49,731 nucleotides of DNA from Thermoproteota archaeon (lineage in GTDB: Archaea; Korarchaeota; JAOZGF01; JAOZFZ01). The notes beneath the pieces were generated by a model. That model did not search any database. It had not been told where the DNA came from and saw only the letters and a program-made list of their open reading frames with translations. Both the position numbers and the translations under genes were made by a program. Location: the NCBI GenBank assembly GCA_027492035.1, contig JAOZFT010000033.1:1-49731 (forward strand). The letters run 5' to 3'. Of this stretch, positions 5,756 to 33,526 are shown in pieces (the stretch's first letter is position 1; every line of letters begins with the position of its first letter).

Positions 5756-7012
5756 GTGACACTTTTATGGGTGAATGTAAAAAGGGGAGTCGTAAAAAAT
5801 AGTTTCAACTTAATTTTTGACGCAGAATTACTTGAACCATTTAAAAAACAGAGAATATATGTATTGGATTCACCAAGAGAATTAGGTCAGTCATCTCCCC
5901 TCTACCCTTTTGCATCAGGCGACCAAGTATTTACAGAATACTTAGATCTTCTATTGAACAAAATACATGTAGATTTTGTGGAGATAGACAATCCAGTAGG
6001 AAGTTCAACAAAAACTAGACACGCCGTAATTGCAACATCGAAATATAAAAAAGTAGTTATTCATTTAAGAGCTCATAGTTTCGACGTTGATTATTTAATT
6101 AAAAACGTTAAAGAAGCAAGGAACGTAGCTGTTTTTACAAGTGCTAATTCAAATGATTTAAAAATGTCTTGGGAGAAACATTTTTCAGAAGTAATTAATG
6201 CTTTGACTTACTTACTTGACTCCTCTTTAAACGTAAGGTTTGCAGTAGAAAACTTTTTCGTTAACTCTAGAAACAAAAAATTAAGGAAAAAAATGTTTAA
6301 ACTCTACAAAGAAGCTGTTTATTTAGGTGTGCACGAACTGGATTTACCTGACACTAGCGGGCTTTCCAACCCTTTAGAAATGTATAAGTTAAGCCGTTGC
6401 TTAATTGAAACATTCAGAAATGAAGAAGTAACTATACACATTCATTCACATGCTTCTCCAGGACATGAACCTTTAGAAAAAGCTGTTTTTGCTTTAGCTG
6501 CAGTTTTAGCTGCAAAGAAAAAGGCATGTATTCACACAACAATTAATGGGAGAGCTGAAAGAGGATACATACCTTCTCTCGTGGATGTAACTGTTCGTTT
6601 AAAAGAGTTAGGTGCAAAAACTAAGATTAACTTTAAAGAATTACTGAACCTTTACCCTCTATATTTAAAACTTTTCTGGTGGTCCCCAGCATTTAACGGT
6701 TTACATCCGCCAATATGGCTTGACCCTTCAGTGAATGCACATTATTCAGGAACACATTACTCAAAAATACTTATGGATTCCTCTGACTACGACTCAAACC
6801 CTTTTTCCAAGTCTTCAATTAAAATTTCACACGTCAGCGGCAAACACGTAATCGCATCTTTAACTAAAAAATACTCAATAAAAACAGACAGTAAAAAGGC
6901 TTCATTGAAACTGAGAGAAATTCTTTCAACTCGAGAAGCTTTCAGGTACCTCTCTTCAAATGGGGAATTGAAAGAGTTAAGTTTACTGGAGGAAATAACT
7001 CAGGAAAGTTAA
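5756..7012 (+). CDS. Diverged homocitrate synthase-like DRE-TIM metallolyase
   Basis: 418 aa, GTG start with a good ribosome site. The whole LysS-type homocitrate synthase layout can be followed. A DSPRELGQ block (38-45) replaces the usual DxTLREGEQ, one residue shorter. HLRAHSFD is at 103-110, PDTSG at 198-202, and the metal-binding HxH pair is H230/H232 in HIHSHASPGH. INGRAERG is at 263-270, and C-terminal HYSGTH (329-334) and SGKH (361-364) match HKAGMH and TGRH. The usual ND after HxH has become AS. The family condenses acetyl-CoA with 2-oxoglutarate. The neighbours LysX and a homoisocitrate dehydrogenase support homocitrate synthesis for lysine, but the changed active-site blocks leave room for another acceptor. 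Confidence 0.72.
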   Translation: MTLLWVNVKRGVVKNSFNLIFDAELLEPFKKQRIYVLDSPRELGQSSPLYPFASGDQVFTEYLDLLLNKIHVDFVEIDNPVGSSTKTRHAVIATSKYKKVVIHLRAHSFDVDYLIKNVKEARNVAVFTSANSNDLKMSWEKHFSEVINALTYLLDSSLNVRFAVENFFVNSRNKKLRKKMFKLYKEAVYLGVHELDLPDTSGLSNPLEMYKLSRCLIETFRNEEVTIHIHSHASPGHEPLEKAVFALAAVLAAKKKACIHTTINGRAERGYIPSLVDVTVRLKELGAKTKINFKELLNLYPLYLKLFWWSPAFNGLHPPIWLDPSVNAHYSGTHYSKILMDSSDYDSNPFSKSSIKISHVSGKHVIASLTKKYSIKTDSKKASLKLREILSTREAFRYLSSNGELKELSLLEEITQES

Positions 7013-7036
7013 TAAAATGGAAAGGAGGAAAAATAA

Positions 7037-7891
7037 ATGGTGAAAATAGGTTTACTGGTGGATAAAATAAGACTGGATGAAAAATTAATTCTGCAAGCAG
7101 CTGAGAAACAAAACGTAGATATAGAAATAATAGACACTTCAAATTTAATGTTAAACATTACTGATCTCCAAAGTAATGTTTATCCTGACGTAGATGTTTT
7201 CCTTCAAAGATGTGTAAGTACACTTCGAGGCCTGTACATAACACAAATCCTTGAAGCTAAAGGGTGCACTGTCATAAACGATTTTAATTCGTCTCAACTT
7301 TGCCTAGATAAAGTAAGATGCTCAATAAAACTTACACAAAACAAAATACCTACACCTAAAACTTACGTGTGTTTCACGGAAAAAGCAGGACTTGAAGCCC
7401 TTAAAAAAATAGGGTATCCGGCTATTTTGAAGCCAATAATGGGAAGCTGGGCCCGTTTAGTTGCTAAAATAAACGATGAAGAAGCAGCTAAATCAATTTT
7501 TGAAGACAGGAACATGATGGGGGTTTGGTACAGTATTTTTTACCTTCAAGAATTCATTAATAAACCAGGGAAAGATATACGTTCAACAGTTATTGGAGAT
7601 AAAGTTGTTGCGGCAATTTATCGCATAAACACTAGTGATTGGCGAACTAACACAGCAAGAGGAGCAAAGGCTGTTAAATGCGAAATAAACCCTAGACTTG
7701 AAGAATTAAGTTTAAAAGCTGCTGAAGCAATGGGGGGAGGAATGTACGGTGTAGATTTAATGGAGACAAATGGGGACTATGTTGTCCATGAAGTAAACCA
7801 CTCTTTTGAATTCAAAAATGTTCAAAGAGTAACAGGTGTGGATGTAGCCAGTGAAATAATAAAATATTTAGTTGATGTTATGAAGAAATAA
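7037..7891 (+). CDS. lysX: LysX-type ATP-grasp ligase (alpha-aminoadipate--LysW ligase)
   Basis: 284 aa RimK-like ATP-grasp protein with ATG start and AGGAGG ribosome site. Family blocks are RCVSTLRG (58-65), PAILKPIMGSWARLVAK (128-144), NTARGAK (205-211) and HEVNHSFEFKNV (251-262), all strongly LysX-like; EVNH provides Mg/ATP ligands. LysX ligates the amino group of alpha-aminoadipate to the C-terminal Glu of the carrier protein LysW, protecting it for reduction and transamination to lysine; ArgX homologues use glutamate. It starts 24 nt after the homocitrate synthase-like gene and 50 nt before the dehydrogenase. No LysW-like ORF is next to it, which is unusual. Confidence 0.88.
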   Translation: MVKIGLLVDKIRLDEKLILQAAEKQNVDIEIIDTSNLMLNITDLQSNVYPDVDVFLQRCVSTLRGLYITQILEAKGCTVINDFNSSQLCLDKVRCSIKLTQNKIPTPKTYVCFTEKAGLEALKKIGYPAILKPIMGSWARLVAKINDEEAAKSIFEDRNMMGVWYSIFYLQEFINKPGKDIRSTVIGDKVVAAIYRINTSDWRTNTARGAKAVKCEINPRLEELSLKAAEAMGGGMYGVDLMETNGDYVVHEVNHSFEFKNVQRVTGVDVASEIIKYLVDVMKK

Positions 7892-7941
7892 AAATAGGTA
7901 CTTCTCAAAATTTCAAAAATTTATAGAAAGGTTTCTTTGTC

Positions 7942-8961
7942 TTGAAGTACAAAATAGCTGTGATAGAAGGAGATGGTGTAGGCCCTGAAATAATGAATTC
8001 AGCTTTAGAGATCCTAAATACTTTAACTCTTCCATTTGAATACATAAAACTTGATGTAGGCTATAAAAAATGGATGGAAACAGGTGAAGCAATAAGTCAA
8101 GGCGACATGGATATTTTGAAAAAGTGTGACGCTACCTTAAAAGCCCCCCTTTACACTCCTTCATCAAAAGAAAAGAATTTTTCAAGTGTTACTTTAACTA
8201 TTAGGAAAGAACTTGATGTTTATGCAAACATAAGACCCATAAAAACGTTTCCAGGAATATCTCCATTCACCGGCCTTGACCTAATAATAGTTAGGGAAAA
8301 CACTGAAGGACTTTACTCTGGTGTTGAACATTCCGTCAACAACGGAGCTGTCACTGAAAGAATAATAACTAAAGCTTCATGTGAAAAAATCTGTAAATAC
8401 GCTTTCAATCTAGCTTTAAAAGAGGGAAGAAGAAAAGTAACTTGTGTACATAAAGCAAATATATTGAAAAAAACTTGCGGGTTATTTAGAGAAACCTTTT
8501 TTGAAACAGCCAAAGACTATCCTTCAATTGAAGCAGAAGAAACTCTTGTGGATGCATGTGCCTACAAATTAATTCGTAACCCTTCAAGTTTCGACGTAAT
8601 AGTTACAACCAACATGTTTGGAGACATATTATCAGATGAAGCAGCTGCTTTAACAGGTAGTCTAGGTCTCGTAGGCAGTTGCAATATAGGTGAAAAACAT
8701 GCAGTTTTTGAACCTATTCACGGTACAGCTCCTGATATTGCGAATGAAGGAGTAGCTAACCCTATAGGAATGATAATGGCTGCAAGTTACATGTGCAACT
8801 TTTTAGGGTTTAAAAATGAAGGAGAAAAAATAAGGAAGTCAGTAACAGAGGTTTTAAAGGAAAAGAAAAATTTAACCCCTGACCTTGGAGGCAAATTAAA
8901 CACTAAACAGTTAACTAATAAAATCAAGGAAGTGTTGATTCAGAAGTATTTAATTCAATAA
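7942..8961 (+). CDS. Beta-decarboxylating dehydrogenase, probable homoisocitrate dehydrogenase (or isopropylmalate/isocitrate dehydrogenase)
   Basis: 339 aa, TTG start with a GAAAGG ribosome site. Motifs are GDGVGPEI (10-17), the substrate-recognition helix TIRKELDVYANIRP (86-99), VRENTEGLYSG (117-127), catalytic K171, metal Asps at 228 and 232 (GDILSDEAA) and NAD-type GTAPDIA (261-267). The family oxidises and decarboxylates 2-hydroxy-3-carboxy acids. Sequence alone does not separate homoisocitrate, isopropylmalate and isocitrate; the cluster with a homocitrate synthase-like gene and lysX favours homoisocitrate to 2-oxoadipate. Confidence 0.85.
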   Translation: MKYKIAVIEGDGVGPEIMNSALEILNTLTLPFEYIKLDVGYKKWMETGEAISQGDMDILKKCDATLKAPLYTPSSKEKNFSSVTLTIRKELDVYANIRPIKTFPGISPFTGLDLIIVRENTEGLYSGVEHSVNNGAVTERIITKASCEKICKYAFNLALKEGRRKVTCVHKANILKKTCGLFRETFFETAKDYPSIEAEETLVDACAYKLIRNPSSFDVIVTTNMFGDILSDEAAALTGSLGLVGSCNIGEKHAVFEPIHGTAPDIANEGVANPIGMIMAASYMCNFLGFKNEGEKIRKSVTEVLKEKKNLTPDLGGKLNTKQLTNKIKEVLIQKYLIQ

Positions 8962-17473: not shown

Positions 17474-18664
17474 ATGAAAATGGGAAACTCCAAAACAACT
17501 CAGCATTTCAAGAAAAAATACCAAGAACTTGTAGAAAAAGGAGAAACATGGGAACTTCTAAAATTGATGGGGCCAACAGGTCCAAGAGCTGTAGTTGAAG
17601 GAAAAGAAATGATAGTATTGGCTTCAAACAACTACTTAAACTTGGCAAACGACCCAAGAATAAAAAAAGCTGCTGCAGAAGCCATAGAAAAATACGGTTT
17701 CGGAGCAGGTTCAGACTGGTCCATTGCAGGCTACACGGACTTACAAGAAAAACTACACAAAAAAATAGCTGAATTCAAAGGGACAGAGGCAGGATTAGCT
17801 TTCCAAACAGGTTTTGCAGTAAATTCAGGAACTATACCTGCAGTAACAGAAAAAGGAGATGTTATATTGTCAGAAGAACTCAATCACGGAAGCATAATAG
17901 ATGGTGTAAGGCTGTCAAGAGCTGACAGAATAGTGTACAAACACTGCAACCCATCAGATCTAGAAAACCATTTAAGGAAAATAGAAGGGAAATACAGGAA
18001 CATTTTCATAGTAACAGATGGAGTGTTCTCGATGGAAGGAGACATAGCTCCAATGAAGGAAATACAGAAGTTAGCAGATGAATACGGAGCAGTGACTTAC
18101 GTAGACGACGCCCATGGTGAAGGAGTACTTGGAGAAGGGAGAGGGATAGGGGTGCATTTCAGAATAGAAAAAAGAATTGATTTCCAAATGGGAACGTTCT
18201 CAAAGGCGCTAGGGTCCTTTGGAGGCATGTTAGCAGGTGACAAAGAAGTAATAGAATATGTGCGAAACACGGCAAGAACATGGCTTCTAAGTGCAGCATA
18301 CCCACCTGCAGTAACAGCCGCCAACATAAAAGCGCTGGAAATAATTATGAAAGAACCTGAAAGAGTTAAAAGATTATGGAGCAACAGAGAATACTTCAAA
18401 AAAGAACTAGACTCAATTGGTTTCAACACAGGAAGAAGCCAAACACCAATAATACCAGTAATAGTAGGCGACACAAAAAAAGTAAAGGAGTTAGCTCAAA
18501 AATTATTTGAAGAAGGAGTCTTTGTTCTACCAATAGTTTTCCCAATGGTTCCAAGAGGAACAGAAAGAATCAGAAACCAGGTAAACGCAGACCATACAAA
18601 AGAAGACTTAAATAAAGCCTTAAACATATACGAAAAAACAGGGAAAAAATTAGGAATAATTTAA
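17474..18664 (+). CDS. kbl: Alpha-oxoamine synthase family PLP enzyme, glycine C-acetyltransferase (Kbl)-like
   Basis: 396 aa, or 394 from ATG 17480, which fits the ribosome site better. Motifs are ASNNYLNLAN (50-59), NHGSIIDG (137-144), TDGVFSMEGDIAP (181-193), YVDDAHGEGVLG (209-220) and catalytic K244 in GTFSKALGSFGG. Kbl splits 2-amino-3-oxobutyrate with CoA into glycine and acetyl-CoA; 8-amino-7-oxononanoate synthase is the main alternative. In the substrate loop GAGSDWSIAG (77-86), Trp replaces the Arg usual in this position in many relatives. No biotin or threonine dehydrogenase gene is nearby. Confidence 0.82.
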   Translation: MKMGNSKTTQHFKKKYQELVEKGETWELLKLMGPTGPRAVVEGKEMIVLASNNYLNLANDPRIKKAAAEAIEKYGFGAGSDWSIAGYTDLQEKLHKKIAEFKGTEAGLAFQTGFAVNSGTIPAVTEKGDVILSEELNHGSIIDGVRLSRADRIVYKHCNPSDLENHLRKIEGKYRNIFIVTDGVFSMEGDIAPMKEIQKLADEYGAVTYVDDAHGEGVLGEGRGIGVHFRIEKRIDFQMGTFSKALGSFGGMLAGDKEVIEYVRNTARTWLLSAAYPPAVTAANIKALEIIMKEPERVKRLWSNREYFKKELDSIGFNTGRSQTPIIPVIVGDTKKVKELAQKLFEEGVFVLPIVFPMVPRGTERIRNQVNADHTKEDLNKALNIYEKTGKKLGII

Positions 18665-31747: not shown

Positions 31748-33142
31748 TCAACTTTCCGTTTCTTTATCTGCTATTTTCAAAGTTTCATCCAAAACATCAA
31801 CTCCTTCATCAATTTGTTCCTCAGTAATTATTAACGGGGGGGCTACTATGAAGTGACTTATCCACCCAAGCAAGTAAAGTCCCTTATTTAACATTTCCTT
31901 GCTCAGTTTCGAAACCATCAAAGGTTTCAACGCTGCTTTGTCAGCTCTTGTGTTAAAAGGTTTCTTTGTTTCCCTGTTTTTAACTATTTCAACAGCCCAG
32001 AAATGACCTAAACCCCTTACATCCCCAACAGAAACATGTTCCTCCTTCAACTCTAAAAGTCTTTTCTTCAAGTGTTCACCTACCCTCCTCAAAAAGTTAT
32101 GCTTCAAAAGCTTCTTATATTCTTCAATAACAACGGGAACAGGGGCTAAAGATAATGGATGGGCAGCATAAGTGTGTCCATGAGCTAAAAATCTGTCTTC
32201 AAAGAAATCAGCTATTTCTTTTGTGGTGGCTGTTATCCCCAAAGGAGTGTAAGCGCTTGTACACCCCTTGGCAGTGGTTAAAACATCAGGCTTAACTTTC
32301 CAATGTTGAACAGCGAACCATTCATCAGTTCGCAACCAACCACTCATCACTTCATCAACAACTAAGAGGACATTGTTTTCATCAGTTACCTCTCTTAAAC
32401 GTGGGAAGTATTCTTTAGGGGGAACGATTATACCGTTTGTTCCAACAACAGGTTCAACAAAAACAGCAGCTACATTTCCTTCGTTTTTAATCATGTAATC
32501 AACATATTCAGCACACTGAATCCCACACTCAGGGTAACTTAAACCAAAGGGACATCTGTAACAGTAAGCATCAGGTGCAAAAATCACGCCTGGAACCTTA
32601 CTCATAGGTTCAGCAAACCAACGTCTAGGATCCCCTGTTAAAGCAATACTTACAGCTGTTGCACCATGGTAAGAACGATACCTAGAAATAATTTTGTACT
32701 TTCCCTCCCCAGCAAAAAACATCCTAATAATTTTAACGGCTGCTTCATTAGCTTCAGTGCCTGAAGTTGAAAAGAAAAATTTTTCAAGTCCCCTGGGCAT
32801 AACTTCAAGTAAGGCCTCCACAGCTTTACTTTTAACTTTGCAACCGAATCCCGGAGCCACGTAAGGAAGTTTTTCAGCTTGTTCCTTAATTGCTTTAATC
32901 ACTGCCTCGTTTCCATGTCCAAGGTTTAAACACATTAATTGAGAAGAGAAATCAAGGTAACGTTTGCCTTCACCATCGAAAAAATAAACCCCCTCAGCCT
33001 TTTCAATAAATAAAGGAGACTTCCAATCTCTTTGAGGCCTCCATGTTCCGTAACTATGCTCAGCTAAAACATTAACCTCTTTCCCCTTACTCACTTTCAA
33101 ACTCCCTCCAATCTTTAACCCTCTACTTCTAAACAAATTCAT
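31748..33142 (-). CDS. Class III aminotransferase (PLP)
   Basis: About 464 aa from ATG 33142, with AGGT just upstream; the frame is open 14 codons further to 33184. Class III motifs are SGTEANEAAVK, YRSYHGAT, VVDEVMSGWLR and catalytic Lys in TTAKGCTSAYTPLG, then THTYAAHPLS-like GHTYAAHPLS. The enzyme transfers an amino group from an omega-amino acid or amine (beta-alanine, GABA, taurine type) to pyruvate or 2-oxoglutarate. An insert CYRCPFGLSYPECGIQC holds four Cys in CxxC...CxxxC order and may bind a metal or form disulfides. Convergent with the aminopeptidase gene; no pathway partner nearby. Confidence 0.88.
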   Translation of the reverse strand: MNLFRSRGLKIGGSLKVSKGKEVNVLAEHSYGTWRPQRDWKSPLFIEKAEGVYFFDGEGKRYLDFSSQLMCLNLGHGNEAVIKAIKEQAEKLPYVAPGFGCKVKSKAVEALLEVMPRGLEKFFFSTSGTEANEAAVKIIRMFFAGEGKYKIISRYRSYHGATAVSIALTGDPRRWFAEPMSKVPGVIFAPDAYCYRCPFGLSYPECGIQCAEYVDYMIKNEGNVAAVFVEPVVGTNGIIVPPKEYFPRLREVTDENNVLLVVDEVMSGWLRTDEWFAVQHWKVKPDVLTTAKGCTSAYTPLGITATTKEIADFFEDRFLAHGHTYAAHPLSLAPVPVVIEEYKKLLKHNFLRRVGEHLKKRLLELKEEHVSVGDVRGLGHFWAVEIVKNRETKKPFNTRADKAALKPLMVSKLSKEMLNKGLYLLGWISHFIVAPPLIITEEQIDEGVDVLDETLKIADKETES

Positions 33143-33526
33143 TATTACCTGATTTTGGAGAAATAAAATTTGGTAAATTTGCAATTTCTTAGGAAAATGT
33201 ATAAAAATTTTACTGTTTCTTCAACAAAAACTCTTCCTTTACATAAATTAAATAAGGAATAAAAAGTCCTTAATTTCTTAGAAATGAGATGCAGAAATAA
33301 GAAGTGAAGACAGAGAAAGTAGATATAATTTTTTTTCGAAATGAAACAATATCCCTTCTTTCCAATTTTAATTGCTCCCGAAAACCTATTTCGGAAACAG
33401 TTAATCAATCAATATACTCAATAAATTAAACTTAATCAAAACTGCCAATTTTTAAAACCTACACTCTCCTTCTTTTAACGTATTTAAGCTTTTCTAGTGA
33501 ATGTTTTAAGGTGGAGGTGGTTGATT
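33143..33526. other. Divergent intergenic region
   Basis: No gene seen. It holds the promoters of the aminotransferase (minus) and phosphodiesterase (plus) genes. TTTTTAAAAC at about 33450-33459 is a candidate plus-strand TATA-like element, and GTGGAGGTGG (33511-33520) is the ribosome site. Confidence 0.35.

Follow-up and report, generated by a model that had tools for sequence, protein, structure and literature searches.

Does an archaeal gene that resembles homocitrate synthase (HCS) but carries an altered active-site signature still serve lysine synthesis, when it lies beside a lysX gene and a dehydrogenase gene and no gene for the carrier protein LysW accompanies it? The question is raised by the window, the 49,731-nucleotide contig JAOZFT010000033.1 of a Thermoproteota archaeon, which is contig C5 of a 1.87-Mb assembly (genome G000; 42 contigs). 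The assembly is 93% complete, and each absence reported below for this genome is therefore provisional; the sister genome used for comparison, G001, is a Thermoproteota metagenome-assembled genome of the same family (record JAOZFL010000134). Three genes on the same strand, separated by 24 and 50 bases, encode a diverged HCS-like DRE-TIM protein of 418 amino acids (5756..7012, +), the alpha-aminoadipate-type LysW ligase LysX (7037..7891, +; 284 amino acids; 327.7 bits to TIGR02144, cut-off 275.6) and a homoisocitrate-dehydrogenase-type beta-decarboxylating dehydrogenase of family PF00180 (7942..8961, +; 339 amino acids). An earlier sequence-only reading had described these open reading frames (ORFs), the synthase motifs D38-S-P-R-E-L-G-Q45, H230-S-H232-A-S and H329-Y-S-G-T-H334, and a canonical LysX, all of which were confirmed; it had offered two explanations, dispersed lysine genes or a synthase that makes a different acid. 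We consider it probable that the trio supplies the lysine-specific steps of a LysW pathway with dispersed genes, and that the first gene encodes a working HCS, remodelled in its active-site loops along the stem leading to one archaeal family. The catalytic activity and the substrate of the synthase are what we infer from its sequence.

The dispersal of the lysine genes is evident from the rest of the genome. LysW (57.2 bits, cut-off 53.2), LysZ (the LysW-aminoadipate/glutamate kinase; NF010662, 258.6 versus 194), LysY (TIGR01850, 434.8 versus 233.6) and most of LysJ (TIGR00707, 454.8 versus 410) are clustered on contig C27, which ends inside lysJ, while an ArgX-like protein is encoded on C10 and an isopropylmalate isomerase (IPMI)/homoaconitase-type enzyme on C16. 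No LysK was detected over cut-off in the genome; in the sister genome lysK comes after lysJ, and the missing gene is expected past the broken end of C27. As the sequence-only reading had stated, LysW, LysZ, LysY, LysJ, LysK and homoaconitase are absent from the window: C5 has no LysW, aconitase or LysK match, and Pfam scans of 30 other window proteins revealed no LysY, LysZ or other LysW-pathway protein, the class-III aminotransferase at 31748-33184 not being LysJ-like. LysA (diaminopimelate decarboxylase, the last enzyme of the diaminopimelate (DAP) route) had no match in G000, G001 or a third genome, G002, and was over cut-off in three of the four other members of the phylum searched. The dapB gene was uninformative about the DAP route, relatives with LysA also being without a dapB match.

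The synthase shares with the LysS/HCS enzymes of the alpha-aminoadipate pathway (Thermus 2ztj, S. pombe 3ivs and 6ktq) the PF00682 TIM barrel, the diagnostic His and Arg, the metal His pair and the HxSGxH motif, together with a neighbourhood containing LysX and homoisocitrate dehydrogenase (HICDH). In the alignment, H103 (6062..6064, +) corresponds to an HCS-specific His (H72 of the Thermus enzyme TtHCS, H103 in S. pombe) and R161 (6236..6238, +) to an HCS-specific Arg (R133 and R163, respectively), which we take to be residues of the HCS substrate site. The former position is His in all 20 HCS-group rows and in none of the 24 others, and the latter is Arg in 20 of 20 and 1 of 24, so that, within the compared set, each of the two sets HCS-group proteins apart from LeuA, CimA and the rest. 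Also retained are T200, H230, H232, E268, R269, H329 and H334, the last two within HYSGTH (residues 329-334; 6740..6757, +), the HxSGxH motif that follows the barrel. HMGL-like (PF00682) is the only domain that Pfam sees in the synthase (67.9 bits, cut-off 29). Because the other two PF00682 proteins of the genome are LeuA and CimA (the latter with 589.6 bits to TIGR00977), the synthase would be the sole candidate HCS if lysine is made by the LysW route. Membership in the HCS group is further suggested by a tree of 44 sequences, in which the G000/G001 synthase pair falls inside that group (support 98/97), its neighbours being HCS genes flanked by LysX, LysK or homoaconitase. An orthologue was found in only one of 198 related genomes (G001, 65%), the next best matches being about 29% identical; a scan of genome contigs returned the sister genome only, and viral contigs scanned with an HCS alignment gave no match.

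Several observations weigh against a working HCS. The best NCBIfam model for the protein, TIGR02146 (LysS, homocitrate synthase), gives 74 bits and fails its cut-off of 413.55, which any protein reaches in just 8 of the 198 related genomes; moreover, no HCS_D2 domain was matched in the synthase, whereas an ordinary HCS shows one. Near-invariant family positions are altered, namely the ND after the metal His pair (HND to HAS in H230-S-H232-A-S; 6443..6457, +), the TL within TLRE and the leading G of GxGER (GER to AER). Positions 233/234 are N or D followed by D in each of the 42 other LeuA/HCS/CimA-type sequences compared, and A/S in the G000 and G001 proteins; the Ser/Thr at position 163 is altered as well, and several loops carry inserts of about 3-5 residues. 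In place of the DSTLREGEQ block stands DSPRELGQ (residues 38-45; 5867..5890, +), identical in G001, for which hhalign picks an ungapped register that removes the catalytic Arg and the metal Glu. AlphaFold, run on the two synthase orthologues, gave a pLDDT of 46.7, too poor for structural comparison, and the G001 assembly yielded no LysX of the window type. In the tree, the stem of the synthase pair is about 5.7 substitutions per site long, and placing the pair outside the HCS group costs 3.4 log units and is not rejected (approximately unbiased test, AU, p = 0.25). The strong divergence described in the sequence-only reading is thereby borne out; that reading would have given way to a dispersed LysW pathway combined with a synthase grouping tightly with verified LysS proteins, of which the pathway was found and the tight grouping was not.

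By its sequence, the window LysX is of the aminoadipate type and not of the ArgX type: it scores 216.8 bits to Thermus LysX (3vpd) versus 150.6 to S. tokodaii ArgX (3vpb), and its signature sites (NTARG/GGG/EFKN) are as in Thermus LysX. The second LysX-family protein, on C10, has ArgX-like sites (SNLAVNG, PQFRG) and about equal scores to both (197.7 to Thermus LysX, 191.0 to S. tokodaii ArgX); its G001 orthologue lies in argX-argH-argG, opposite and next to lysZ-lysJ-lysK (gene order read from sequence; LysK by hidden Markov model). The GSWGR motif, which recognizes the LysW tail (PMC10433800), is GSWAR in the window LysX (7442..7456, +). That the synthase condenses another 2-oxoacid with acetyl-CoA, supplying a different acid for a LysX-like ligation whose product is not lysine, would fit its extreme divergence, the changes at near-invariant positions and the GSWAR motif. 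However, this alternative is improbable and the corresponding option of the sequence-only reading found no support: the residues that mark 2-oxoglutarate use are retained, the LysX is aminoadipate-type, neither another HCS candidate nor LysA was found, and GSWAR is also present in the LysX proteins of three other loci beside LysW (L166, L167 and L178). In favour of the lysine reading, synthase and dehydrogenase are also adjacent in G001 (contig C214, L040 1267-3631), with no LysX between them.

The proposed pathway ends in lysine, and its middle steps can be assigned provisionally. The synthase would form homocitrate from 2-oxoglutarate and acetyl-CoA, the LeuCD on C16 would convert it to homoisocitrate, and the window dehydrogenase would oxidize this to 2-oxoadipate, which would be transaminated to alpha-aminoadipate and ligated to LysW by LysX. 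The LysW-bound aminoadipate would then pass through LysZ, LysY, LysJ (all on C27) and LysK, while the separate ArgX would put glutamate on the same LysW for arginine. The genome has two PF00180 members, the window dehydrogenase and a LeuB encoded in ilvC-leuC-leuD-leuB on C16 (L078 3383-7320). This cluster holds the single IPMI/homoaconitase-type large subunit of the genome, one further partial aconitase-family match lying on C3, and G001 likewise has a single IPMI-type locus; one LeuCD thus probably works in the leucine as well as the lysine pathway, and perhaps also in that of isoleucine. The window dehydrogenase falls below the cut-offs of both NF040626 (410.6 bits versus 540) and TIGR02088 (403.8 versus 409.8), and its best match is AksF2. 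This match, along with genes at 70-78 kb of contig C38 that read, by inspection only, as formylmethanofuran/tetrahydromethanopterin one-carbon enzymes, would suit an AksA-type (homo)n-citrate synthase that acts in chain elongation of the coenzyme B kind, with or without a part in lysine synthesis; the presence of LysX within the operon, the single IPMI/homoaconitase and the lack of a second HCS make such a role very unlikely. Among other window genes, a class I/II pyridoxal-phosphate enzyme (17474-18664) was considered as the aminoadipate aminotransferase and rejected, being a BioF/Kbl-type acyltransferase.

A working HCS depends on how the DSPRELGQ block is read. Against a family profile, the block scores -9.2 bits when aligned without gaps and, before gap costs, about +8.5 bits when a single deletion and a single insertion are allowed; in the latter case R-E-x-x-Q falls into line, R41, E42 and Q45 becoming the predicted catalytic Arg, metal Glu and Gln at an offset of one residue. 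Since this score is far better and R[ED]xxQ arose in just 3 of 20,000 random blocks, the shifted register is in our judgement clearly the more credible of the two. The sequence-only reading was right that DSPRELGQ stands where DxTLREGEQ is expected, and whether the block is lost depends on the register, R-E-x-x-Q being recoverable with indels. Were the ungapped register of hhalign correct, the protein would be without catalysis, a regulator or a decaying gene; this is a distinctly remote prospect given the rarity of the motif by chance, the retention of the other active-site residues, purifying selection similar to that on LeuA, and a genome that would be left without an HCS. The ratio of nonsynonymous to synonymous changes (pN/pS) since the split from G001 is 0.29 for the synthase, 0.27 for LeuA and 0.26 for HICDH, and this resemblance indicates a remodelling that is old and fixed, so that decay was rejected. 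Read as a working HCS, the synthase would illustrate the extent to which an essential biosynthetic enzyme may diverge with its substrate residues intact, and automatic annotation could overlook lysine synthesis in archaea of this kind.

The more surprising part of the pathway is its carrier. The only LysW detected in the genome, a protein of 60 amino acids on C27 (L038 3092-3274, -), ends in EDWGQ (tail gaagattggggtcag-taa). In the systems studied, the C-terminal Glu of LysW carries the substrate (PMC10433800). Among 47 distinct LysW sequences, collected with a search pattern that demanded a W near the end and that wholly different tails would escape, 34 end in EDWGE, 13 in EDWGQ and none otherwise. 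The EDWGQ ending occurs in four archaeal families, that of G000 and three others, here f33 (L166, L167, L168), f128 (L151, L157, L164, L165) and f8 (L169-L173, L190), with both CAA and CAG codons; this recurrence led to the rejection of an isolated sequence error. The NCBI archaeal LysW model aligns to the last position with EDWGQ sequences, which are therefore already recognized as LysW. In the literature searched, no mention of EDWGQ was found, and a search for LysW with a C-terminal glutamine or deamidation gave best-ranked results that were unrelated or concerned Pup. The GSWAR motif of LysX was considered as a partner change to EDWGQ and rejected, as it does not track the tail.

Comparison with known systems sets this carrier in context. 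In Sulfolobus, LysX and ArgX act on one LysW (PMC10433800), and the present genome shares with that lysine/arginine pathway one detected LysW, one LysX, one ArgX paralogue and a common LysZ/LysY/LysJ; it differs in that its lysine-specific genes lie apart from LysW, in the EDWGQ tail and in the GSWAR motif. In family f8, the Gln-ended LysW adjoins HCS, LysX and LysK (for example L171, genome G031), while a second, Glu-ended LysW (EDWGE) adjoins ArgX. Both the f8 cluster and the window place HCS beside LysX, and the lysine LysW ends in EDWGQ in both genomes. The f8 HCS is among the nearest tree rows to the window synthase and, unlike it, has DSTLREGEQ and HND. Tentatively, LysW may be made Gln-ended in several archaeal lineages and, before aminoadipate is attached, either be converted by a glutaminase-like or gamma-glutamyl-hydrolase-like activity or be charged by a ligase through transamidation, in which case the lysine pathway would differ at both its first enzyme and its carrier. 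Such an ending challenges the rule of a C-terminal Glu as substrate carrier. Some bacteria produce the protein tag Pup in amidated form, Pup-GGQ being deamidated by Dop; a LysW deamidation step, if real, would resemble the Pup case.

Amidotransferase-like genes accompany the Gln-ended LysW in two of these families. In two genomes of f128, lysY and a lysZ-lysJ fusion flank a gene for a class-II glutamine-amidotransferase-like protein, which has an N-terminal Cys2 and weak similarity to EgtC (L164 5792-6463 and L165 5958-6605; also L187 792-1463). In two genomes of f33, a class-I glutamine amidotransferase of 222 amino acids (L184 685-1350; L186 7644-8309, -), distantly related to GMP synthase subunit A and plant gamma-glutamyl peptidase 1, follows directly after lysJ, the usual place of lysK. 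EgtC and gamma-glutamyl peptidase 1 cut gamma-glutamyl bonds, and by analogy these proteins could free lysine from its carrier, deamidate the Gln end, or do both. Among 91 ORFs around Glu-type LysW genes, no glutamine amidotransferase family reached three members, a result compatible with one or two such proteins and thus a weak control for a specific association with Gln-type LysW. In a third f33 genome (L185 3619-4035, G061:C6), lysW stands alone, with lysX, lysY, lysZ, lysJ and the amidotransferase gone, and the gene next to it is the one that comes after the missing lys genes in its f33 relatives.

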